Below are positions 40,627 through 53,013 of a stretch of 64,000 nt of DNA, piece after piece; the first letter of the stretch is position 1; every line of letters begins with the position of its first letter. The position numbers and the translations under genes are program-made. Source of the stretch: Chelatococcus sp. YT9 (GTDB lineage Bacteria; Pseudomonadota; Alphaproteobacteria; Rhizobiales; Beijerinckiaceae); contig NZ_JAHBRW010000001.1 of the NCBI RefSeq assembly GCF_018398315.1, positions 248,001-312,000 on the forward strand, written 5' to 3'. The notes beneath the pieces are model-generated. The model saw only the letters and a program-made list of their open reading frames with translations. It did no database searches and was not told the origin of the DNA.

Positions 40627-41685
40627 ATGTCAAAGATTGTAGCGACGAGACGGGTTGTCCTGAATGTGGGCCTGGGCCTCACCATGGCATTGGCTGTGAG
40701 CGGTGTGATTTCTCCGGCCGCGGCGCGCGAGAAACTCGTCATCAACTCATACGGGGGCGCCTACGAGCAGATCCATCGCAAGCTCGTGATCGAGCCGTTC
40801 TCGAAGAAATACGACGTCGACGTCCAGGTCATCACGGCCTACTCGGCCGACGCCTTGGCGCAGTTGCGAGCCCAGAAGGCCGCGCCGCAGTTCGATGTCA
40901 TCCATTTTTCCGGCGGTCAGGAAGTCGTCGCGGCGCGTGAAGGCCTGATCGCGCCGATCAAGCCGGACGAACTCACGAACGCCAAGGACCTTTATCCCTT
41001 CGCCATCGAAGGGCTGTCCCGTGGCGAAGGCCCGGTCCATGCGGTGGCCGCCATCGGCCTTCTCTACAACAAGGAAAAGGCCAAGAAACCGGAGAAATGG
41101 GCCGACCTCTGGAACGCGGATTACAAGGACCACGTCGTCCTGACGGACCTGTCGAACAGCTACGGCCTCCTTGGCTTCCTGATGATCAACAAGGTCAAAG
41201 GCGGTGACCTGACCAAGGTTGACCCGGGCTTCGATGCCGTGAAGACGCTGCTCGACAGCGCGGTTGTCGTCGCGACTTCGCCGGAGATGCAACAGAACTT
41301 CGCGCAGAACGACGCGTGGATCGCGCCTTACGCACAGGACTATGCCTATACGCTCCGCAAGGCAGGCCTGCCGATCGAATTCGTGCAAGGCGCGGAAGGA
41401 ACGCCGGCGGTCTATCTCACCGCCAATCTGGTCGCCAACCGCCCGAACCAGGACCTTGCGAAAAAATTTATTGATTTCTCCCTGTCGGCGGAAGTCCAGG
41501 CGGGTTGGGCGCAGGAATTGCGCTACTCACCGACCAATAAAGCCACGAAGCTCGACGAGACAGTGTCTAAGGAAGTGGTCTATGGGCCGGACGCGGTCGC
41601 CGGTCTCGTCCGCTTCGATCCCGTCGCGGTGGATGCGAACCGCGCGGCCTTGGTCGAGCGCTGGAAGAAGTTGATTGCGAAGTAA
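40627..41685 (+). CDS. ABC transporter substrate-binding protein, polyamine-like (352 aa)
   Basis: A periplasmic receptor of the PotD-like family. The signal peptide ends SPAAA-R. The mature part starts EKLVINSYGGAYEQIHRKLV, with VIHFSGGQEVVAAREGL and WIAPYAQDYAYTLRKAGLP matching the receptor at 35916-36959. It is the first gene of a four-gene ABC operon on the plus strand. Ligand is not assigned. Confidence 0.91.
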   Translation: MSKIVATRRVVLNVGLGLTMALAVSGVISPAAAREKLVINSYGGAYEQIHRKLVIEPFSKKYDVDVQVITAYSADALAQLRAQKAAPQFDVIHFSGGQEVVAAREGLIAPIKPDELTNAKDLYPFAIEGLSRGEGPVHAVAAIGLLYNKEKAKKPEKWADLWNADYKDHVVLTDLSNSYGLLGFLMINKVKGGDLTKVDPGFDAVKTLLDSAVVVATSPEMQQNFAQNDAWIAPYAQDYAYTLRKAGLPIEFVQGAEGTPAVYLTANLVANRPNQDLAKKFIDFSLSAEVQAGWAQELRYSPTNKATKLDETVSKEVVYGPDAVAGLVRFDPVAVDANRAALVERWKKLIAK

Positions 41686-41686
41686 T

Positions 41687-42595
41687 GTGGACCGCCGCGT
41701 GAGTCCGTCCACAGACAACGGAGTTGTCGACACGCCGCCCCTCCCCCCTCAAGGCGTGTCGACACGCGTCCTCGGCGGTATCGCCGAGGACGCTACTCTC
41801 TCCGCGCCAGGTGTCTTCCTCATCCTCCTCGCCTTCATCCTGCCCATCGGGCAGATGCTGCTGTTGAGCCTTGAGAATACCACCGGCGGCCTGACGGTGG
41901 AGCATTTCACCCGTTTCCTGGGCGATGGCTATTATCTCGGCATCGTCTGGCGCACCCTGCGCCTGTCGCTTCTCATCACCGTCATTGCCGCCGTCATCGG
42001 CTTTCCGCTCGCCTATGTCATGGCGCATGTCGGGCCGCGACTGAGACTGTGGCTCATTATCCTCGTCATCCTGCCGCTGATGACCAGCGTCGTGGTCCGC
42101 ACTTTCGGCTGGATGGTGCTGCTCGGGCGCGGTGGGCTCATCCCCTTCACGCTCTGGAAGCTCGGCTTCGTCAATCGCAATTTCACCCTGATGCAGACGG
42201 AGAGCGCAATCGTCATCGGCATGGTTCAGGTCCTCCTGCCCTTCATGACGCTCTCCGTGCTCGGCGTCGTCATGAAGGTCGACCGGCGGCTGGAAGAAGC
42301 GGCGCGCACCATGGGCGCGAGCTTCCTCGCGACGCTGCGCACGGTGGTTCTGCCTCTCGCGATGCCCGGCATTGTCGCCGGCTCCCTGCTCGTCTTCACC
42401 CTGTCGGTCAGTTCCTTCATCACGCCCTCGCTGCTGGGCGGCGTGCGCCTGCCGGTTGTAGCCGGCTCGATCTACGAGGCCGCGACGAAGACGCTGGAAT
42501 GGAACTTCGCAGCCGCGCAGTCGGTCATCCTCCTCATTGGCGTGTTCCTCGTGCTCCTGCCTTATCTCAAGCTGACGGGACGCCGGCATGGTTAG
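41687..42595 (+). CDS. ABC transporter permease, PotB type (302 aa)
   Basis: Six-segment permease with EAA-loop EEAARTMGASFLATLRTVVL and SVSSFITPSLLGG typical of PotB. Its likely start is GTG at 41687, 1 bp behind the receptor's stop codon; GTG at 41699 is possible. It overlaps the next permease by 8 bp. Confidence 0.9.
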   Translation: MDRRVSPSTDNGVVDTPPLPPQGVSTRVLGGIAEDATLSAPGVFLILLAFILPIGQMLLLSLENTTGGLTVEHFTRFLGDGYYLGIVWRTLRLSLLITVIAAVIGFPLAYVMAHVGPRLRLWLIILVILPLMTSVVVRTFGWMVLLGRGGLIPFTLWKLGFVNRNFTLMQTESAIVIGMVQVLLPFMTLSVLGVVMKVDRRLEEAARTMGASFLATLRTVVLPLAMPGIVAGSLLVFTLSVSSFITPSLLGGVRLPVVAGSIYEAATKTLEWNFAAAQSVILLIGVFLVLLPYLKLTGRRHG

Positions 42596-43391
42596 AGCCG
42601 TCCCGACCACCGTGCGCATCACGGCGTTTCTCTTCGTCGTGCTGACGCTCGTCTTCGTGCTTGCGCCGCTCGTGGTGGTGGCCGGGGTATCAGTGTCGGA
42701 GAGCCAGTTCATCGCTTTTCCGCCAGCCGGCTTCAGCCTGCGCTGGTACAGCGCCATCCTGACCTCGGGCGCCTATCTCGGCGCCGCCTGGACCAGCCTG
42801 AAGCTTGCTGTTCTCGTGACGATCTGCGCCACCGTCATCGGCGCGGGCGCCGCGATCACGCTGCATCGCCGGCGTCTGCCCGGTGCGGCCTTGCTCGCCG
42901 GCCTTTTCCTGTCGCCGCTCATCCTGCCGACCATCATCTTTGCCATCGGCCTCTTGATGCTCTGGAGCGCGACCTTCGGGCCGGTGTCGTTCACGGCGCT
43001 GTGGATCGGCCACACGGTGGTCGCCTTGCCCTATGTGGTGCGGACCACGCTCGCCGTGCTCGCCGAGTCCGACCCCTTTCTGGAGGAGGCGGCCGCGACG
43101 ATGGGCGCGCGGCGCTGGCAGCGACTCGTGTTCGTGGTGCTGCCCCAGTGCCTGCCGGGGCTCGCCGCCGGCGCCTTCTTCGCGTTCAACATCTCCTTCG
43201 ACGAGGCCGTCGTGGCGCTCTTCCTGCGCACCCCTGACCTCGTGACACTCCCCATCCAGATCTACAACCAGCTCGAGTTCAGTCCCGATCCATCGGTCGC
43301 GGCCGTATCGACCCTCATGATCGGCGTGACCATTCTGCTGATCGTCGTGATCGACCGCCTGCTCGGCATTCAACGTTTTACTGGCGCCTGA
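42588..43391 (+). CDS. ABC transporter permease, PotC type (267 aa)
   Basis: Partner permease with EAA-loop EEAAATMGARRWQRLVFVVL and NISFDEAVVALFLRTPDLVT. It has six hydrophobic segments. The start codon lies inside the end of the preceding gene, so translation is coupled. The ATPase gene begins 1 bp after its stop. Confidence 0.92.
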   Translation: MVRAVPTTVRITAFLFVVLTLVFVLAPLVVVAGVSVSESQFIAFPPAGFSLRWYSAILTSGAYLGAAWTSLKLAVLVTICATVIGAGAAITLHRRRLPGAALLAGLFLSPLILPTIIFAIGLLMLWSATFGPVSFTALWIGHTVVALPYVVRTTLAVLAESDPFLEEAAATMGARRWQRLVFVVLPQCLPGLAAGAFFAFNISFDEAVVALFLRTPDLVTLPIQIYNQLEFSPDPSVAAVSTLMIGVTILLIVVIDRLLGIQRFTGA

Positions 43392-43392
43392 G

Positions 43393-44463
43393 ATGACCCC
43401 GACAGCCTCCCCCGCGGTAAGCCTTGCCGGCATCGAGAAGACATTCGGCCGCACCAAGATCCTGCACGGCATCTCGCTCGATATCCCGAAGGGCACGTTC
43501 CTCAGCCTGCTCGGCCCCTCCGGCTGCGGCAAGACCACGCTCCTGCGCATCGTCGCGGGCCTGGAAAGCGCGACTGTCGGACAGGTCACCATCGCCGGCC
43601 GCGATGTGACCCGGCTGCCGCCGGAAGACCGGGACATCGCCATGATGTTCCAGTCCTACGCGCTGATGCCGCATATGAACGTGCGCGAGAACGTGCGCTT
43701 CCCGCTCAGAATGCGCCGTCGGGGCTCGCGCGAGGAACAGGAGGCGCGTGCCACCGCGGCGCTGGAAACCGTGCAGCTCGGCCATCTCGCCGACCGCATG
43801 CCCCGCCAGCTCTCCGGCGGCCAGCAGCAGCGCGTGGCGCTCGCCCGCGCCATCGTCTCCGACCCCGCCGTGCTCCTGCTCGACGAGCCCCTGTCCAATC
43901 TCGACGCGCGCCTGCGCGAGGACATGCAGGTGGAACTCATCGAGCTGCACCGCCGGCTCGGCCTCACCACCATCTTCGTCACCCACGACCAGGAGGAGGC
44001 GCTCAGCCTCTCCGACCACGTGGTCCTGATGAACGCCGGCCGCATCGAGGAACAGGGGCCACCACTCGCCATCTACGAGACGGCTGGCTCGCGCTTCGCG
44101 GCGAGCTTCATCGGCTCGGCCAATGTGGTGCCGGTCGAGGTCGAGACGGCAGGCGGCGTGGTGACGGCGCGACTGCCCGACGGCAGCAGGCTTGCCGTGG
44201 AGACGCCTGCCCCTCAAGGCGCCAACCACCTAGCCCTACGCCAGGAGGACCTGACGCTCGCTGCGGATGATGCCCCCCGCGCCGAGGGCCGCTCCTTCGC
44301 GGCAACGGTCGAGACCCGCGTCTTTCTTGGCGCCCGTGTACGCTACGTCCTGAAGGTCGGCGACCTCAGCCTGAAGGCGCTGGCGGAGCCGGGCCGCCTC
44401 TATCAGGCCGGCGACCGGGTCCTAGTGACCGTCCCGCCCGGCAAGGCACGTCTGGTGGCATGA
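43393..44463 (+). CDS. ABC transporter ATP-binding protein, PotA type (356 aa)
   Basis: Walker A GPSGCGKTT near residue 41, Q-loop FQSYALMPHMNV, signature LSGGQQQRVALA, Walker B VLLLDEPLSNLDA and H-loop VTHDQEEALS, followed by a TOBE domain. It completes the second polyamine-type importer of the locus. A REP-like palindrome lies about 40 bp behind the stop codon. Confidence 0.93.
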   Translation: MTPTASPAVSLAGIEKTFGRTKILHGISLDIPKGTFLSLLGPSGCGKTTLLRIVAGLESATVGQVTIAGRDVTRLPPEDRDIAMMFQSYALMPHMNVRENVRFPLRMRRRGSREEQEARATAALETVQLGHLADRMPRQLSGGQQQRVALARAIVSDPAVLLLDEPLSNLDARLREDMQVELIELHRRLGLTTIFVTHDQEEALSLSDHVVLMNAGRIEEQGPPLAIYETAGSRFAASFIGSANVVPVEVETAGGVVTARLPDGSRLAVETPAPQGANHLALRQEDLTLAADDAPRAEGRSFAATVETRVFLGARVRYVLKVGDLSLKALAEPGRLYQAGDRVLVTVPPGKARLVA

Positions 44464-44608: not shown

Positions 44609-45721
44609 TCACGCGGCGCGGTGCAGCTCGCCGCCAGGCATGGGATGCGACACGCCGGTCGTGGTGGGCAGGCTGAGCGGCAATCCGCGGCGCGCCCGCA
44701 CGGCGAGATAGGCGAACGCCTCGGCCTCCAGAAAATCACCATGCCAGCCGACCGCTTCGACCGGCTCGACGGCGACGCCGAGACGCTGTTGCAGCCGGTG
44801 CATGAGATGCGTGTTATGGCGACCGCCGCCGGTGACGAGCCAGCGCGCCGGCGGCGTCGGAACATGGCGGAGGCTCGCAACCACGGATTCCACCGTGAAC
44901 GCCGCGAGCGTCGCCGCCCCATCGGCGTCGGACAGCGCCTCCACTCCGGCCGCGCGACGGTGAAAGTCGTTCCGATCCAGGGATTTCGGCGGCCTGCGGG
45001 AGAAGAAAGGATTATCCATGAAGGCCGCGAGGAGGGCCTCGTCGACTCGGCCGGAAGCGGCAAGCGCGCCATCCGCATCATAACTCAGGCCGCGCCGGCG
45101 CATCACGAAATCATCGAGGAGTGCGCTCGCCGGGCCGGTGTCGAAGGCGATCGCCGTGTCGCCATCGAGATAGGTCACATTGGCGACACCGCCCAGATTC
45201 AGCACCATCAGCGGCTGCGCAAGCCCCGACGCAAGAGCGCGGTGGTAGAGCGGCGCGAAAGGTGCGCCCTCGCCGCCCGCCTCTACATCCGCATGGCGAA
45301 AGCGATTGACGGTGTCGATGCCGAGCCGGCGCGCCACCTCGGCGCCGAAGCCGAGCTGGCGCGTAAACTTGAGGTCCGGTCGGTGATAGACGGTCTGGCC
45401 GTGGAGGCCGATCAGCGACACGGTGTGGCAATCGATGCCGGCATGGGCCATGAACGTCTCGATCGCCGCGATATGCGCGTCCGTCACCGCCTGTTCGAGG
45501 TCGTCGAGGGGCTCTTTCAAAGCGCGCTCGGCTTCTGCCACGATACCGATCAAGGCGCTGCGCACGTCATCGGGATAAGGGACGGTCAGCCCGGCGCCCG
45601 GCTCAACCTTGAGATCGCCATCAGTGCGAACCACGGCAACGTCGATGCCATCCATCGAGGTGCCGCTGATGACGCCGATTGCCGTGACCACGTCCGGTCC
45701 GCCCAACTCCGTTCCATCCAT
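44609..45721 (-). CDS. anmK: Anhydro-N-acetylmuramic acid kinase AnmK (370 aa)
   Basis: Phosphorylates 1,6-anhydro-N-acetylmuramate from cell-wall turnover with cleavage of the anhydro ring. Family motifs are visible: GVISGTSMDGIDVAV at the start, SLIGLHGQTVYHRP, VLNLGGVANVTYL, AFDTGPASALLDD and LVTGGGRHNTHLM. ATG at 45721 follows GGAGCG; an upstream start at 45805 lies in sequence without family similarity. No murQ gene is adjacent, so recycling genes are scattered. Confidence 0.93.
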   Translation of the reverse strand: MDGTELGGPDVVTAIGVISGTSMDGIDVAVVRTDGDLKVEPGAGLTVPYPDDVRSALIGIVAEAERALKEPLDDLEQAVTDAHIAAIETFMAHAGIDCHTVSLIGLHGQTVYHRPDLKFTRQLGFGAEVARRLGIDTVNRFRHADVEAGGEGAPFAPLYHRALASGLAQPLMVLNLGGVANVTYLDGDTAIAFDTGPASALLDDFVMRRRGLSYDADGALAASGRVDEALLAAFMDNPFFSRRPPKSLDRNDFHRRAAGVEALSDADGAATLAAFTVESVVASLRHVPTPPARWLVTGGGRHNTHLMHRLQQRLGVAVEPVEAVGWHGDFLEAEAFAYLAVRARRGLPLSLPTTTGVSHPMPGGELHRAA

Positions 45722-46090
45722 ATTCGCGCTCCAGCCGATGGGTAGCCTTCTGGCCGTGGCCGTTCTCCGTGGAGAGCGAATCACGCACCGTCCGCGCCGC
45801 CCCAATCCGCCTCAGGCGTAGCGCAAGCCATGAGGCTGGCCAACGGCAATCAGCGTGATTGGCATATCCGCTCTGGCAAGACGTGCACCAAGCCCCCGAA
45901 TCTGGGCATAATCCAGCCGGAAGACGACTCAGCGTGTGCCGTCCCTCAGCCGCGACAGCTTGAGAATGTTCGGCACGCGCTGCATGGGACGGCAAAGACC
46001 GCAGTGCCGTTTGGACCATGATCGCCACGCGCCGGTCAGGCTCCGATGAAAGGACCGGATGGAGCGCGATCTGTTGAGTAGGACATAGCG
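45722..46090 (+). other. Intergenic region without a supported gene
   Basis: 369 bp between the divergent anmK and acyl-CoA dehydrogenase genes. I find no repeat, terminator or convincing small gene; short frames here lack ribosome binding sites. Confidence 0.5.
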
Positions 46091-47977: not shown

Positions 47978-49132
47978 TCACAAGGCAATGAGATCGCCGG
48001 TACGGGGCTCGGGATCAAGCGTCGGAAGGCGGCCGGCCATGGCCACGAGGCCGGCCCGGTCGCAGGAATGGCCGAGGCTGAGCCGCGCGCCGCTTGCCGT
48101 GACGATGGCCACGTTCTCCGACCAGGTGGGATGCGTCGGCAGGCGCAGCCAGTCCGCCTGCCCCGCTTGGCGGATCGCATGCGCCGGGCTTGCCGCCGGC
48201 ACATGCCCTGTGAACAGCATCGGCAGCCCATCCCGAGCAGCGCGCGGCAGATGATCCGCCGCCGGCCCACCGAGGCCCATTGCATCATGGGTCAGGAGCG
48301 GCCGGTCGGGCCAGCTCTCGCCTTCACTCCAGTCGACGGCTTCTTCGAGCTTGCCGGCTAGCCCGGCCTGCAGACCCGGCCAGAGCCATCGCGCGTCGCC
48401 GATCTGCGCCTTAAGCGCATCACGCAGGCCCGGCGCCAAGGCGAGCGGCGGGAGCAGTGCCAGAAGCTCGAGCGAGCGGCCGGACAGCGGCACGGGCAGG
48501 AGGCAGCGTGGATGCGCGGCAACCCAGTCCACGACCGCCGCGGCCCGAGCGGCCGGCGGTACATCGTCATCGCCGTAGGACGCATCGAAGAGCACCACGT
48601 CGGCAGGCGGTGGCGCGTTATAGGCGAAAACGCTGCTCTTCGGTACGACGTCGCCGCAATAGAGCACCCGCTGTCCTTCCCCGTTGACGAGGCACCAGAC
48701 CCCGCCGACCACATGGCCATTGCGCCCCGTGGTGATGGTGAGATCGCCGATCGTCAACGCCTCGCCCGGCGCGATGAGCGAGATCGGCGCGGCCAGGGCG
48801 AGGGCCGCGTCAGTAGGTTGGGCATAGTCCCTCAGACAGGCCGGCATATCGGCGCGCGTTTCCGCCGTCATCAGGATGCGGCCGCGAAAGCCGTGGCGGA
48901 GGCACCAGCCGAGAGCCCCGAGGTGATCCTCATGGGCGTGAGTGATAAGGAGGGCATCGGCAGTGACCAGATCCGCCGGGCTGATGACAGGATGGTAAGC
49001 GCGCTCCCAATCGACGTCGCGCGGGGCATTGGTGTTGATGCCGACGTCGATGATCAGGCTTGTCGACGCACTCTCGATGCCAAAGCTGGTGCGCCCTTTC
49101 TCACCGAAACCTCCATAGAGCCTGAGCTTCAT
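47978..49132 (-). CDS. MBL-fold metallo-hydrolase (384 aa)
   Basis: A binuclear-metal hydrolase. The metal motif ITHAHEDHLGALGW lies near residue 65, further ligands are in GRNGHVVGG (His near 139) and LYCGDVVPKS (Asp near 159), and GHS near residue 360. The C-terminal half (about residues 180-360) resembles the beta-CASP-like insertions of RNA or phosphodiester hydrolases, but the match is weak. Its start overlaps the ATPase stop by 4 bp, so it is part of the Pho-promoter operon. Hydrolysis of an imported phosphoester or phosphonate-derived cyclic phosphate, as by PhnP, is an inference from context. Confidence 0.85.
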   Translation of the reverse strand: MKLRLYGGFGEKGRTSFGIESASTSLIIDVGINTNAPRDVDWERAYHPVISPADLVTADALLITHAHEDHLGALGWCLRHGFRGRILMTAETRADMPACLRDYAQPTDAALALAAPISLIAPGEALTIGDLTITTGRNGHVVGGVWCLVNGEGQRVLYCGDVVPKSSVFAYNAPPPADVVLFDASYGDDDVPPAARAAAVVDWVAAHPRCLLPVPLSGRSLELLALLPPLALAPGLRDALKAQIGDARWLWPGLQAGLAGKLEEAVDWSEGESWPDRPLLTHDAMGLGGPAADHLPRAARDGLPMLFTGHVPAASPAHAIRQAGQADWLRLPTHPTWSENVAIVTASGARLSLGHSCDRAGLVAMAGRLPTLDPEPRTGDLIAL

Positions 49133-50223
49133 GCGGCGACCCTCGCCCCTGCCGTCGGTATTGCCCAGCCCTGTCCCGGCTTCACCGTGATGGTCACGGC
49201 ATCGCCCACCTCGACGGTGGCCGGCTCCGGCACGTCGAGCGAAAGGATCCGATCGTCTGCGGCGTCCACCGCCGCCTCGACACGGAACAGGCCGCCGCGA
49301 TAGACGACGCGGGTGACGCGGCAGGCGAGGCCTTCGCCGCCTGCATCAGCCAGAGCGAGATCACCGGCGCGCACGCAGAGCTCGCCCTGCCCGGCCGCGC
49401 GTTGGTCCCTGGCGCAGCGGAGCATCAGCTCGCGGCCGAAGAGGCGTGCCCGCGCCCGCCCCTCCCCCTCGGGGAGGATATTGGTGAGCGGCAGCACCAT
49501 GCCGTGGCCGATAAAGGAGGCCACCATGGCATTGGCCGGCTCGCGGTAGAGTTCGCTCGGCGTAGCGAGCTGCATCAGGCGCCCGTGGTCGATCACCGCG
49601 ATGCGGTCGGCGAGTGCCATTGCCTCCGCCTGATCATGGGTGATGTAGATCATCGTGTTGCCCGTGCGGCGGTGGAAGGCCGCGAACTCGTCCTCCATGG
49701 CCGCCCGCAGGTGGACATCGAGGTTGGCGAGCGGCTCGTCGAGCAGGACGAGCGACGGCGCCGCGACGAGGCAGCGCGCGAGCGCCACACGTTGGCGCTG
49801 GCCGCCGGAGAGGTTCGCAGGCCGGCGGTCGCCGAAGCCCACGAGATCGACCAGCGCCAGGGCCTCCTCCACGCGTCGGCTCCTCTCGGCCGGGGGCACA
49901 CCGGCGACGCGCAGGCTGTAGCCGACATTCTCCGCAACGCTCATATGCGGCCACAGCGCATAGTTCTGGAAGACGATGCCGACGCGGCGCAGCTCCGTCG
50001 CGACATGGGCGGCGGCTGAGGAGACCAGGCGATCCCCGATGCGGATCGTCCCGCCGGTCACCTCGTCAAAGCCGGCGATCAGCCGCAGCAGCGTGGTCTT
50101 GCCGCAGCCCGAGGGTCCCAGGACGGCGATGAACTCGCCGTCGGCCGCGTCGAGGCTGACGCGATCGAGCGCCTTGAACGGCCCGAAATCCTTCGTGACG
50201 GTGTCTATGGTCAGTCGCGCCAC
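49129..50223 (-). CDS. ABC transporter ATP-binding protein, Fbp/AEP type (364 aa)
   Basis: Walker A GPSGCGKTT near residue 33, Q-loop FQNYALWPHMSV, signature NLSGGQRQRVALA, Walker B VLLDEPLANLDV, H-loop ITHDQAEAMALA. A TOBE-like C-terminal domain follows. It is the energy subunit of the importer with the binding protein at 51944-52936. It overlaps the permease gene by 13 bp and the MBL-fold gene by 4 bp. Confidence 0.93.
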   Translation of the reverse strand: MARLTIDTVTKDFGPFKALDRVSLDAADGEFIAVLGPSGCGKTTLLRLIAGFDEVTGGTIRIGDRLVSSAAAHVATELRRVGIVFQNYALWPHMSVAENVGYSLRVAGVPPAERSRRVEEALALVDLVGFGDRRPANLSGGQRQRVALARCLVAAPSLVLLDEPLANLDVHLRAAMEDEFAAFHRRTGNTMIYITHDQAEAMALADRIAVIDHGRLMQLATPSELYREPANAMVASFIGHGMVLPLTNILPEGEGRARARLFGRELMLRCARDQRAAGQGELCVRAGDLALADAGGEGLACRVTRVVYRGGLFRVEAAVDAADDRILSLDVPEPATVEVGDAVTITVKPGQGWAIPTAGARVAA

Positions 50224-51915
50224 GGCAGGACTCCAGGAGGAATGCGCTTAGCAAAGGCGAGCGTCGCCAGCATCAGGACCAGCGTGACCAGCACCGTGAG
50301 CACAGCGACCGCCGCCGCATAGTTGGAATCGCCGGCCTGCTCGAAGGAAAAGACGATGACACCCAGGGTTTCCGAGCCCGATGACCACAGCAGGGCGGAG
50401 ACCGTGAGCTCGTTGAAGGCCGTGAGGAAGACCAGCAACGCGCCCGCCGTCGCCGCCGGCGCCACGAGCGGGAAGATCACGGTGCGAAGCCTATAGACGA
50501 GGCCGGCACCCGCCACCTGCGCAGCCTCCTCCAGCGCCCGGTCCACCTGATGATAGCCTGACATCGCGGGGCGCAGGCCGAGCACCAGGAACCGCGCGAG
50601 ATAGGCGAAGAGGATGATCCAGATGGTGCCGTAGAGGCTCACGCCGAGGATGGGCAGCGGCTTGAGGAAGATGAGGATTGCCGCGATGGCCAGCACCACG
50701 CCCGGCAAGGCATAGGGCAGTTCCACGAGGACGTTCAGTGCCCGCAGGAGAGGCGAGCGCCGCCACACCAGGAAATAGCCGAGCGGCACGGACAGGAACA
50801 TGATGACGACAGCCGCGACGGCCGACAGCGAGAAGCTGTTGAAGAAGGCGCGCTTGGCCGCCGCATGCTCGAACAGCACGAAGGCATAGTTGCCAAGCGT
50901 GGCGGTGGTCGCATTGAGCGGCACACCGAACGCCGGCACCAGCGAGGTGAGGAACAGCCCGACCATCGGCAGGACGAGGACGATGAGGGCGATCCCCCAG
51001 AGCGCCGCCTCGACGGGAAGCCGCCACCTCCCCATGGTGAAAGGCCGTGCGGTGATGGACGTCGTTGTGACGGAAGTCGCGCCGGCGCAGCATGACGTCC
51101 TGCAGAATGATGCCAGCCATGGCGATGACGCCGATGAGCATGGACAAAACCGCCACCTCCGACAGGACGGACGGCCCCAGGCCTGAGAGCCGCTGGTAGA
51201 TCAGCGTCGGCAAAACGACATAGCGGCCAGGAATTCCGAGAAAGGCTGGGATGCCGAAGTTACCGATCGAGGAGACGAAGGCGAGCGCCGTGCCCGCGAC
51301 CAGGCCCGGCGTCATCAGGGGCAGGATGATCGTGCGCAGGATGAAGAAGCGGCCGGCGCCGGCCGCCCGCGCGGCCTCCGTGAGTTCGCGCGGCAGACTG
51401 CGCAGGCCGGCGCGCAGCGTCAGGAAGACGAGCGGCGCATATTGGATGCCGAGGAGCAGAATGATGCCCTCGCGCGAATAGAGAGGGTTGCGCGCGCCGA
51501 TAGGCGGGGCAAGGCCAAGGAGCTTGAGCAGCGGACTCGCCGGCCCGACCACCTGCAGCCAGGCAAGCGCGGTCACCTGCGGCGCGATCATCAGCGGGAG
51601 CACGAAGCACAGCACGAAGGCGTTGCGGCCGCGTATGTCGGTGAGCGCAACCACCAGGGCCACAACGGTCCCCAGGACGACGGCGATCACAGTGCCGCCG
51701 ATGGCGGTTTCGAGGCTGTGGAGGGTGGCCGTCCAGGTGTTGGCGTTGGCGAGAGTGGCGGTCAACGCCCTCAGGGACGGCGCGCCGCCCGGCGCGAAGG
51801 CCTCAAACAGAAGCCGCGCCAGCGGCATCAGGGACAAGAGCCCGATGACAACGCAGAGCACCGCGAAGAGAATGCGATCCTGGCGACGTCCCGAATTGTC
51901 CGCAACCAGGCTCAT
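50211..51915 (-). pseudogene. Fused two-domain ABC permease (FbpB/AepW type) interrupted by a frameshift
   Basis: The first half (51915 to about 51066) encodes a six-segment permease domain with EAA-loop TEAARAAGAGRFFILRTIIL. The second half (about 51060 to 50211) encodes another with EEAAQVAGAGLVYRLRTVIF. Such tandem domains are normally one protein of about 550 residues. Here the first frame (VMLRRRDFR) continues without a stop for over 500 bp in the wrong frame, while the correct continuation (TTSITARPFTMGRWRLPVEA) is offset by one base. Dropping one base near 51056-51066 restores a single frame. An ATG at 51035 would allow separate translation of the second half. This is either a genuine frameshift or a sequencing error; programmed frameshifting is less likely. 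Confidence 0.75.
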
Positions 51916-51943
51916 GAAACGAAAGCGCCTCTACTGCTGCTGA

Positions 51944-52936
51944 TCAGCCGCCGAACATCTCGGCGAAGCGCTTCTTATCGGCTTCGGTCGCAGAGAGCAC
52001 GGCCTGAATATCGATCGGCATCAGCTTGATCTCGGTGCCCTCAGGCAACCAAGCGGGGTTAGGAATGCCTTCCTTGGCCGGGATGTAGCCTTGCGACACG
52101 GCGAGCTTCTGGCCGTCGTCGGACAGGATGAAGTCGATGAAAGCCTTGGCGGCCTCGGGGTTCTTGGTGGCCTTGAGAATGGCGACAGGCTCGGTGACCG
52201 CAGGCGCGCCTTCCTTGGGGAAGACGAACTCCACCGGCGAACCCTTGGCCTTTGCATTCAAGGCCATGAAGTCGACGAGCACGCCATAGGCCTTTTCGCC
52301 GCCAGCGACGGACTTCAGCACGGCGCCATTGCCGCGGACGGTGACGGCGTCGTTGGTCTTCAGCGCGTCGAAGAACTTCCAGCCGAGATCGGGACGGGCG
52401 GCGAAAGCCGACAGCATGATGGCGGCAGCGCCCGAATAGAGCGGGCTCGGCGCGACGATCTGGCCCTTCAGCGCCGGATCGGCGAGATCGGTCCAGGAGG
52501 TCGGCTTCTTGGCGGCAGCCGTGTTGTAGGCGATGCCGGTCGTGATCAGCTTGGAGCCGAAATAGGTCTTGTCCTTGTCGAAGGAGCCCGCGCGCAGGCC
52601 GTCGACCTTGGCCGCGTCATATTTCATGAGGCGGTCATCGCGCTTCAGGGCTTCCATGGAAACAGCATCGGCGATGAGCAGTACGTCTGCCCCCGGCTGG
52701 CCGCCTGCGAACTCAGCGGCAAGCTTGGACATCACCTCGACGGTCCCGGAGCGGAAAATGTCGACCTCGACATTCGGGTAAGCCTTCTTGAAGGCTTCAA
52801 CCGTCTTGGCCGCGTCGGCATCCGGCTGTGACGTATAGAGCGTGATCTTGCCCGACTGGGCCGAGGCGGTTCCAGGGCCCAACGCCAGGGCACAGGCAGC
52901 GACGGCCGCGAACAGGGCCGAAAATCTCAGCGACAT
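51944..52936 (-). CDS. ABC transporter substrate-binding protein, Fbp/AEP-like (330 aa)
   Basis: Periplasmic receptor with signal peptide ending ASA-Q and mature start GKITLYTSQPDADAAKTVEA. FRSGTVEVMSKLAAEFAGG, PGADVLLIADAVSMEALKRD and FIDFILSDDGQKLAVSQGYI match the family that contains ferric and 2-aminoethylphosphonate receptors. No adjacent tyrosine pair, the usual ferric ligand of FbpA, exists anywhere in the sequence, which argues against iron. With the Pho-type promoter upstream a phosphonate or organophosphate ligand is more likely. GGGAGA precedes the ATG. Confidence 0.9.
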   Translation of the reverse strand: MSLRFSALFAAVAACALALGPGTASAQSGKITLYTSQPDADAAKTVEAFKKAYPNVEVDIFRSGTVEVMSKLAAEFAGGQPGADVLLIADAVSMEALKRDDRLMKYDAAKVDGLRAGSFDKDKTYFGSKLITTGIAYNTAAAKKPTSWTDLADPALKGQIVAPSPLYSGAAAIMLSAFAARPDLGWKFFDALKTNDAVTVRGNGAVLKSVAGGEKAYGVLVDFMALNAKAKGSPVEFVFPKEGAPAVTEPVAILKATKNPEAAKAFIDFILSDDGQKLAVSQGYIPAKEGIPNPAWLPEGTEIKLMPIDIQAVLSATEADKKRFAEMFGG

Positions 52937-52963
52937 GGATATCTCCCGTCATGATCGTGCCGC

Positions 52964-52998
52964 CTTATACGGCGTTTCGCATTACAGTTTGGCGACAG
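52964..52998 (-). promoter_or_regulatory. PhoB-type promoter (Pho box plus -10) for the ABC/MBL operon
   Basis: On the minus strand CTGTCGC-CAAA-CTGTAAT (52998 down to 52981) matches the 7+4+7 Pho box (CTGTCAT repeated) at 11 of 14 positions. Exactly 11 bp further lies TATAAG (52969-52964), the spacing of classical Pho promoters in which the box replaces the -35 element. The receptor start codon at 52936 is 27 bp beyond. The pattern is directly visible; regulation by PhoB is inferred. Confidence 0.7.
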
Positions 52999-53013
52999 TC
53001 ATCAACCTGTCAT
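52996..53013 (+). promoter_or_regulatory. Second Pho box, facing the oxidoreductase gene
   Basis: CAGTCAT-CAAC-CTGTCAT on the plus strand matches the Pho box at 13 of 14 positions and shares three bases with the opposite-strand box. No good -10 follows at 11 bp, so it may extend the PhoB array rather than drive the gene at 53265. The remaining gap 52937-53264 shows nothing else. Confidence 0.55.

Follow-up and report, generated by a model that had tools for sequence, protein, structure and literature searches.

Introduction

Among the closest described relatives of the system treated here are the AfuABC and P5PAB importers of Actinobacillus, which are ATP-binding cassette (ABC) transporters of the Fbp type. 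AfuA, a predicted iron receptor, binds hexose phosphates (PMC4546632), and its homologue P5PA binds pyridoxal phosphate (PMC8427247). In this study, we analysed an operon of this importer type in the soil bacterium Chelatococcus sp. YT9, which is located in a window of 64,000 nucleotides (contig NZ_JAHBRW010000001.1, positions 248,001 to 312,000; "the window" denotes this entire stretch). From 52936 to 47978 on the minus strand, direct reading and profile matches give the order receptor, Fbp-type permease, ATPase and metallo-β-lactamase (MBL)-fold hydrolase; divergent from the operon is a gene for DXR-II, a DXR-like reductoisomerase of the methylerythritol phosphate (MEP) pathway (Table 1). 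With a probability that we put at roughly 0.4, sequence comparisons suggest that the imported cargo would be of the type of MEP or 2-C-methyl-D-erythritol cyclodiphosphate (MEcPP), that it would be processed by the MBL enzyme together with a phosphatase, and that relatives would burn its carbon via reversed steps of the MEP pathway.

Similar in description is a pair of Sinorhizobium meliloti genes, SMc04316-SMc04317, also named afuAB. They form a Pho-box operon with a predicted role in iron transport that is highly induced by phosphate stress and are, thus, likewise a Pho-controlled importer annotated for iron; the likeness to the window operon is one of description, and the published account names neither an MBL enzyme nor DXR-II in the passage concerned (PMC8829014). 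A first-pass annotation of the window had proposed a phosphate-starvation-induced importer of a phosphonate or organophosphate with a hydrolase of its own. Import of a phosphorylated organic compound together with a dedicated hydrolase is supported by the comparisons reported below. New relative to that annotation are the frame change in the permease, the second Pho box and the divergent DXR-II gene, as well as the phosphatase, the Na/Pi (sodium/phosphate) cotransporter and the DXR-II-E1-E2 genes found in relatives.

Pho Boxes Upstream of the Operon

The half-sites of the operon's Pho box are CTGTCGC (52998-52992) and CTGTAAT (52987-52981), both on the minus strand. Scored over the 14 positions of the consensus CTGTCAT-N4-CTGTCAT, this box is weak when taken alone, being one of nine window matches at three or fewer mismatches where 3.6 are expected; within its own 250 bp, shuffling gives p=0.01. 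The layout of the Pho regulon, i.e., two 7-mers spaced by 4 bp and placed 10-11 bp above a -10 hexamer, is present at the operon, and the box and its distance of exactly 11 bp to TATAAG, as first annotated, can be read directly at 52998-52964 of the minus strand. A better box, on the opposite strand, abuts the first. At one mismatch or fewer, the pattern occurs at four sites in the 6.74-Mb genome of the window strain (G000), compared with none for the reversed control. This second box is one of the four. Another (L163) separates pstS (465 bits, cut-off 339), from which it is some 80 bp away on the upstream side, from the gene for a PhoR-like kinase (324.8 bits, below the cut-off of 334.2). Both boxes are in place in all four Chelatococcus genomes, which are close relatives (G087 scores 12/14 and 10/14), and in the second box the spacer letters vary more than the half-sites. 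Phosphate-starvation control, as first proposed, has gained from the abutting box and the four genomic sites including that at pstS, and Pho control of the window operon is well supported by the sequence evidence.

A shuffle scan of the 250 bp upstream of the receptor gene covered 17 loci, comprising 15 of the 18 close importer loci and two distant ones. Outside Chelatococcus, a clear Pho box was found in G062 and G022 (p<=0.005), in Nitratireductor (p 0.003) and in Phaeobacter (p 0.02); G and L numbers designate genomes and loci of our comparison.

Two other strong matches of the genome are recorded here as separate observations. At L164 (G000:C2:1554400-1560400), a one-mismatch box lies upstream of an operon for an ABC permease whose last gene is of the GDPD family. 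The only perfect match of the genome, at L162 (G000:C2:62200-68200), belongs to a branched-chain-type ABC locus; it is situated where two branched-chain-type permease genes meet, and both of these are on the other strand.

Receptor, Hydrolase and Permease

The nearest solved relatives of the receptor P0005 are 8x1a, AfuA (4r72, E-value (E) 8e-19) and P5PA (6wce, E 9e-16). R62, G64, T65, K129, Y167, S168 and G169 are identical in all 26 aligned receptors; D222 is Asp in 23 and Glu in three of them, and E242 is Glu in 22 of the 26. By alignment, T65 corresponds to AfuA S37 and P5PA T37, S168-G169 to S148-G149, D222 to AfuA D206 and E242 to AfuA E229. Thus, the Ser/Thr/Gly loop by which AfuA-type receptors bind phosphate is present together with the acidic sugar ligands, with equivalents of T65, S168, D222 and E242 kept between the two systems. 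In contrast to AfuABC and P5PAB, the window receptor has Val at the position of AfuA H205, the operon is under predicted Pho control, and the gene set of the window and its relatives comprises an MBL hydrolase, a SurE-like phosphatase, a Na/Pi transporter and DXR-II. Judged by sequence, the receptor is nearest to the sugar-phosphate and pyridoxal-phosphate binders AfuA and P5PA, not to receptors for 2-aminoethylphosphonate (AEP); the predicted structure, built from three input sequences only, has a confidence score (predicted local distance difference test, pLDDT) of 35.

The hydrolase P0001, whose gene is coupled to that of the ATPase by the overlap ATGA (49129-49132), as had been annotated and as the gene coordinates confirm, is nearest to CPSF, TTHA0252 and RNase J by both sequence and fold. 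It contains the corresponding MBL core with HxHxDH and the later His/Asp motifs; H65, H67, D69, H70, H140, D161 and H334 are invariant in 48/48 aligned rows, which represent 47 distinct loci, since L034 and L049 denote one and the same. H355 is kept in all 21 close rows and is replaced by Ala in 24 of the 27 distant ones. With CPSF73, TTHA0252 and RNase J it has the N-terminal core (HxHxDH, H140, D161) in common; it differs from them in its size of 384 residues, in a C-terminal part modelled at low confidence (structure usable for about residues 1-280, pLDDT <50 from 283, a candidate β-CASP region) and in its location in a transport operon. It is 81% identical to the enzyme of Chelatococcus asaccharovorans. 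The assignment to PhnP-type enzymes is not supported, since PhnP is absent from its seven NCBIfam matches (E 0.01); a UlaG-type lactonase was also considered, and UlaG is likewise absent from the seven.

The annotated order of receptor, permease, ATPase and hydrolase stands; the permease, however, is not one intact gene. Its halves are in different frames, the first starting at 51915 and the second running from an ATG at 51035 to 50211. In three other Chelatococcus genomes (L032-L034), the permease is a single frame; compared with these, the linker in the window is 2 nt shorter, and the start of the second half reads ATG instead of CTG or CTC. The domains are fused in the Chelatococcus relatives and in annotated plasmid loci. 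The split may be due to an error in sequencing or to decay of the gene, or the permease may function in two pieces.

The Importer-Hydrolase Cassette in Relatives

Across a survey of 149 genomes of the family, close relatives of the hydrolase (E 1.9e-100 or better) were found in 14. In total, 20 distinct close loci were compared, at 18 of which importer genes adjoin the hydrolase gene. Of these 18, 14 have a SurE-like gene after that of the hydrolase, the four Chelatococcus loci being the exceptions, and eight have a Na/Pi cotransporter gene nearby. Among 63 plasmid records with a match to the hydrolase, 10 were compared. The distant hydrolase group comprises 27 loci, 16 of them stretches of about 4 kb; importer pieces adjoin in 24 of the 27 and weakly in one, and a histidine or dual-specificity-type phosphatase is found in 14. 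Importer plus MBL hydrolase, mostly with a phosphatase, is, hence, a recurrent unit. SorC/DeoR/LacI-type sugar regulators are among the neighbours of cassette loci.

As an observation of its own, L098-L102 and L107-L122 form a wider alphaproteobacterial family of importer, distant hydrolase and phosphatase, some with LacI or DeoR regulators.

DXR-II and Its Genomic Associations

According to PMC3847144, DXR-II is scattered with or without DXR-I, a distribution that has been called redundancy, and animal pathogenicity is the only linked phenotype. P0006 matches PF21135 and the Brucella enzyme DXR-II/DRL (3upl, E 2e-160, aligned over 428 residues), with which it shares all seven DXR-II residues listed in PMC3847144 (E174, F178, K191, K193, T229, R320 and Y322). 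On this basis, P0006 is DXR-II, the reductoisomerase of the MEP pathway, with predicted turnover of 1-deoxy-D-xylulose 5-phosphate (DXP) and MEP. Its homology begins near residue 63, so that translation probably starts further downstream than 53145, at another ATG.

Within the survey, DXR-II (above 440 bits) is present at 34 places in 30 genomes: in 13 of the 14 genomes with a close hydrolase relative and in 17 of the 135 others (Fisher p=9e-10, which overstates the association since related genomes are not independent). In 11 of the 14, belonging to five genera, the distance to the hydrolase gene is 10 kb or less.

At 18 of the 34 places, DXR-II adjoins a particular type of E1-alpha gene. All 24 aligned E1-linked DXR-IIs keep the seven residues, as compared with 0/9 paralogues; among unlinked DXR-IIs, 5/14 keep them and the others differ mostly at Y322. 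DXR-I (TIGR00243) is found in 9 of the 18 genomes with E1-linked DXR-II and in none of the 12 with unlinked copies only (p=0.004). Counting either DXR-I or a second DXR-II, the figures are 13/18 and 0/12 (p=9e-5, in part built in, as a genome that has a linked copy beside an unlinked one counts as linked). A catabolic role of the linked enzyme would require its host to have a further reductoisomerase; the extra reductoisomerase in E1-linked genomes fits a non-biosynthetic job of the linked enzyme. In the DXR-II tree, linked and unlinked forms interleave instead of forming two clades, with five label changes each, so that E1 linkage would have been gained or lost several times; this fits repeated recruitment in either direction. 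Support for the placement of the Chelatococcus copies is weak (83/60).

Unlike the described Brucella gene, DXR-II of many relatives has E1/E2 and sugar-uptake genes as neighbours, in a cluster of catabolic appearance. Six loci (L035-L039, L041) combine the importer cassette with DXR-II, E1-alpha and E1-beta in one gene string; five of them also contain E2, and the stretch of L035 stops short of it. G032 has the cassette, the DXR-II-E1-E2 set and a glucitol-type phosphotransferase system (PTS) in a span of about 20 kb. Across the 18 DXR-II-E1 loci, the importer-hydrolase pair occurs in seven, a glucitol-type PTS in five (G032 having both) and a PfkB kinase in two. The remaining five lack cassette, PTS and PfkB: G097 has an Fbp-like importer, the 8-kb contig of G023 ends in a PtsP-like gene, and at the loci of G043, G106 and G128 no transporter was recognised. 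In G059, an importer without hydrolase directly follows E1-E2. Of 68 plasmid records with DXR-II, nine were compared; E1-alpha adjoins DXR-II in six, with a PTS at four (Aminobacter, Nitratireductor, Pseudoroseomonas and Terrarubrum, the latter identical to G019) and a sugar ABC transporter plus PfkB at two (Agrobacterium, Sinorhizobium americanum). In Priestia, DXR-II is accompanied by major facilitator superfamily (MFS) and FGGY kinase genes, with E1-beta/E2/E3 genes 5-8 kb away, and in both records from Phyllobacterium there are sugar ABC genes and no E1 within the stretch.

The E1-alpha, E1-beta and E2 proteins of L036 match pyruvate dehydrogenase (PDH) and acetoin dehydrogenase models and are in this respect like these complexes, from which the proposed substrate DXP differs; E1-beta passes a subfamily model only.

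Two observations stand apart. IspH-family genes are near DXR-II-E1-E2 in G043 and G106 (one genus), as is a prenyl synthase gene in G043; these may be ordinary chromosomal neighbours. A second cluster of C. asaccharovorans (L138, G087:C13:58000-76000) contains DXR-II, E1-alpha, E1-beta, E2, a SorC-type regulator, a SurE-like gene, a PfkB kinase, genes of the histidine-acid-phosphatase family and of phosphopentomutase type, and another Fbp-type importer.

Proposed Pathway

The imported molecule is very probably some phosphorylated small organic compound. In our proposal, a PhoB-controlled ABC importer would take up this cargo, the MBL metallohydrolase would open the phosphodiester or the cyclic diphosphate in it, and phosphate would be released by a phosphatase, which most close relatives have in a SurE-like form. 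The likeliest cargo would be a phosphorylated 2-C-methyl-D-erythritol, namely MEcPP or MEP; ring opening and one dephosphorylation of MEcPP would yield MEP, matching one MBL enzyme and one phosphatase. In relatives with the whole set, DXR-II would oxidise and rearrange MEP to DXP, which the E1/E2 complex would then cleave to acetyl-CoA and glyceraldehyde-3-phosphate (GAP). Polyol uptake and phosphorylation, DXR-II and E1/E2, as encoded by these clusters, fit the route methylerythritol → MEP → DXP → acetyl-CoA + GAP. A work on 1-deoxyketose formation by pyruvate and acetoin dehydrogenases, cited in PMC3424233, would provide a precedent for the reverse of the last step.

Bacteria and plants can export MEcPP, and its exit from and entry into cells are described as an open question. 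In bacteria, export follows its accumulation, if not always and mostly as seen in engineered or stressed cells; the compound is chemically stable and resistant to alkaline phosphatase (all from PMC11192765). To use it, a cell would have to possess both an uptake system and a dedicated enzyme for its hydrolysis. MEcPP as the cargo proper we consider a rather unlikely, if specific, choice. Similarly doubtful is the wider idea that Alphaproteobacteria and a Priestia would catabolise methylerythritol via reversed MEP steps, with the window cassette as a Pho-controlled MEcPP branch possessing a new MBL hydrolase. Among open-licence papers, judged by titles and the opening lines of abstracts, no description of methylerythritol or MEcPP catabolism or of this gene set was found.

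If this wider idea is true, DXR-II would be a primarily catabolic enzyme that took over biosynthesis on several occasions, each upon loss of DXR-I, and such an origin would account for a distribution that is patchy and often redundant. The conserved DXR-II-E1-E2 cluster with uptake systems for sugar alcohols or organophosphates would make both the role of DXR-II and MEcPP transport testable by ordinary assays, and a family of supposed iron importers would be re-annotated as organophosphate importers.

Observations Opposing the Proposal and the Window Strain

Several observations weigh against this proposal. Concerning the window strain, DXR-I was not found in any of the four Chelatococcus genomes, IspG is present in all four, and P0006 is the only DXR-II of the window genome at the E limit of 1e-60 (G087 has a second copy). 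P0006 is, therefore, probably a biosynthetic housekeeping enzyme in this strain. The window genome contains no close E1-alpha (best E 2.1e-74, where the linked type gives 2.5e-133 or lower), and genes for E1/E2, the SurE-like protein and SorC are not at the window locus, so that the catabolic interpretation rests on relatives. For the window itself, the evidence goes as far as a predicted Pho-controlled organophosphate importer beside an MEP-pathway gene; in this strain, the operon would be a scavenger of phosphorus and possibly of MEP. Also opposed are the frame-broken permease and the likeness of the hydrolase to nucleases.

Among relatives, two hydrolase orthologues (L040, L043) lack the importer, and G059 has hydrolase, importer and E1-E2 and no DXR-II match. 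No other DXR was found in five of the 18 E1-linked genomes (G019, G097, G068, G043 and G023), some of which, not including G019, are fragmented. Neither E1-alpha nor E2 reaches the equivalog cut-offs of PDH. One SurE-like protein was scored and falls below every SurE cut-off (best 126.9 vs 135.1 bits), so that this name is one of annotation only. The stretches compared for the 27 distant cassettes (16 of them about 4 kb) contain neither DXR-II nor E1.

Finally, in the 17-locus scan, the boxes of G090 and G094 are borderline, and no convincing one was found in G051, G018, G114, G032, Phyllobacterium and Pannonibacter; the scanned start in G051, G114, G090, G094 and G032 is not at a start codon. 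The best box pair of Aminobacter is not significant (p 0.21); its four half-sites in an 11-bp register score 20/28, a value reached in 0/3000 mononucleotide shuffles, with the score chosen after seeing the sites. Conservation of the box upstream of orthologous operons is seen in Chelatococcus and some other genera and is not convincing in others. With clear boxes in some lineages and none convincing in others, Pho control would be lineage-dependent.

Alternative Explanations

A generic Pho-controlled organophosphate scavenger, for a sugar phosphate or, e.g., a glycerophosphodiester, is a plausible competitor at somewhat less than even odds; DXR-II would then be an incidental neighbour in Chelatococcus. 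MBL enzyme and phosphatase would free phosphate in this case as well, the receptor family fits, the 14 distant cassettes that pair hydrolase and phosphatase do so in stretches free of DXR-II, and P0006 is the sole reductoisomerase found in the window genome. What this explanation does not accommodate is the proximity of DXR-II to the close hydrolase genes in five genera and the six gene strings that unite DXR-II, E1 and importer.

A scavenger of nucleotides or oligonucleotides, in which the MBL enzyme would cut (di)nucleotide phosphodiesters and SurE would remove phosphate, appears improbable. It would agree with the relationship of the hydrolase to CPSF73, TTHA0252 and RNase J, with the SurE-like genes, which are annotated as 5'/3'-nucleotidase, and with a PNKP-phosphatase-like HAD (haloacid dehalogenase) protein at the Phaeobacter locus. 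However, the SorC/DeoR/LacI-type regulators, the glucitol-type PTS and the DXR-II/E1 neighbours do not fit.

The first-pass suggestion of a phosphonate importer, for AEP or another phosphonate and with a PhnP-like enzyme, has become very improbable. PhnSTUV/AepXVW belong to the same superfamily, and the putative AEP families TIGR03261/03262/03265 are among the nearest NCBIfam models, but the window proteins score far below the curated cut-offs (receptor 158 vs 392.75 bits of TIGR03261, ATPase 316.6 vs 457.7, permease halves 81 and 70 vs 593), the hydrolase is not PhnP-like, and neither phosphonatase nor C-P lyase is among the listed features of eight annotated loci.

Least probable of all is a ferric iron importer, as the Fbp-like fold and the label "iron ABC transporter permease" in seven of the eight annotated loci would imply: P0005 is probably not a ferric receptor because the AfuA-type phosphate loop is kept and, as had been noticed before, the Tyr pair is missing (V221-D222 at the site of AfuA H205-D206), the operon has a Pho box, and AfuA itself was once taken for an iron receptor.

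Feature Coordinates and Neighbouring Genes

Table 1. Positions of the operon, its control elements and adjacent genes in the window.
Feature	Position	Strand	Basis or remark
Operon's Pho box, CTGTCGC-CAAA-CTGTAAT	52981..52998	-	11/14; same place in 4/4 Chelatococcus
Second Pho box, CAGTCAT-CAAC-CTGTCAT	52996..53013	+	13/14; opposite strand, 3 bp in common with the first
TATAAG, candidate -10 hexamer	52964..52969	-	11 bp below the operon's box
Periplasmic receptor P0005, AfuA/P5PA-like	51944..52936	-	profile and structure-relative matches
Permease domain 1 with out-of-frame tail	50491..51915	-	homology about 51061-51915
Permease domain 2, other frame	50211..51035	-	ATG at 51035; ends at 50211
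ABC ATPase P0002 with TOBE domain	49129..50223	-	profile matches
MBL-fold hydrolase P0001, CPSF/RNase J-like	47978..49132	-	profile and structure matches
Small protein P0007, about 121 residues	47478..47843	-	homologues beside the same operon elsewhere
DXR-II (DXR-like reductoisomerase) P0006	53145..54623	+	PF21135; 3upl; 7/7 residues
AnmK (anhydro-N-acetylmuramic acid kinase)	44609-45805		PF03702

The small protein P0007 matches neither Pfam nor NCBIfam models at E 0.01 and looks helix-turn-helix-like by eye. With blastp, homologues (E 8e-24 to 2e-29) were found next to this operon in Aminobacter, Nitratireductor, Phyllobacterium and G051, and it represents an uncharacterised protein family that recurs beside the operon in several genera.

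AnmK is encoded near the operon in all four Chelatococcus genomes, and Nitratireductor has MurQ-AnmK beside its operon. A muramic-acid-phosphate cargo, at which these genes hint, was dropped, as AnmK occurs in no other compared locus. A second ABC transporter set is located nearby (41056-44445), with identities to the operon's proteins of 31% for the receptor, 33% for the permease and 40% for the ATPase.

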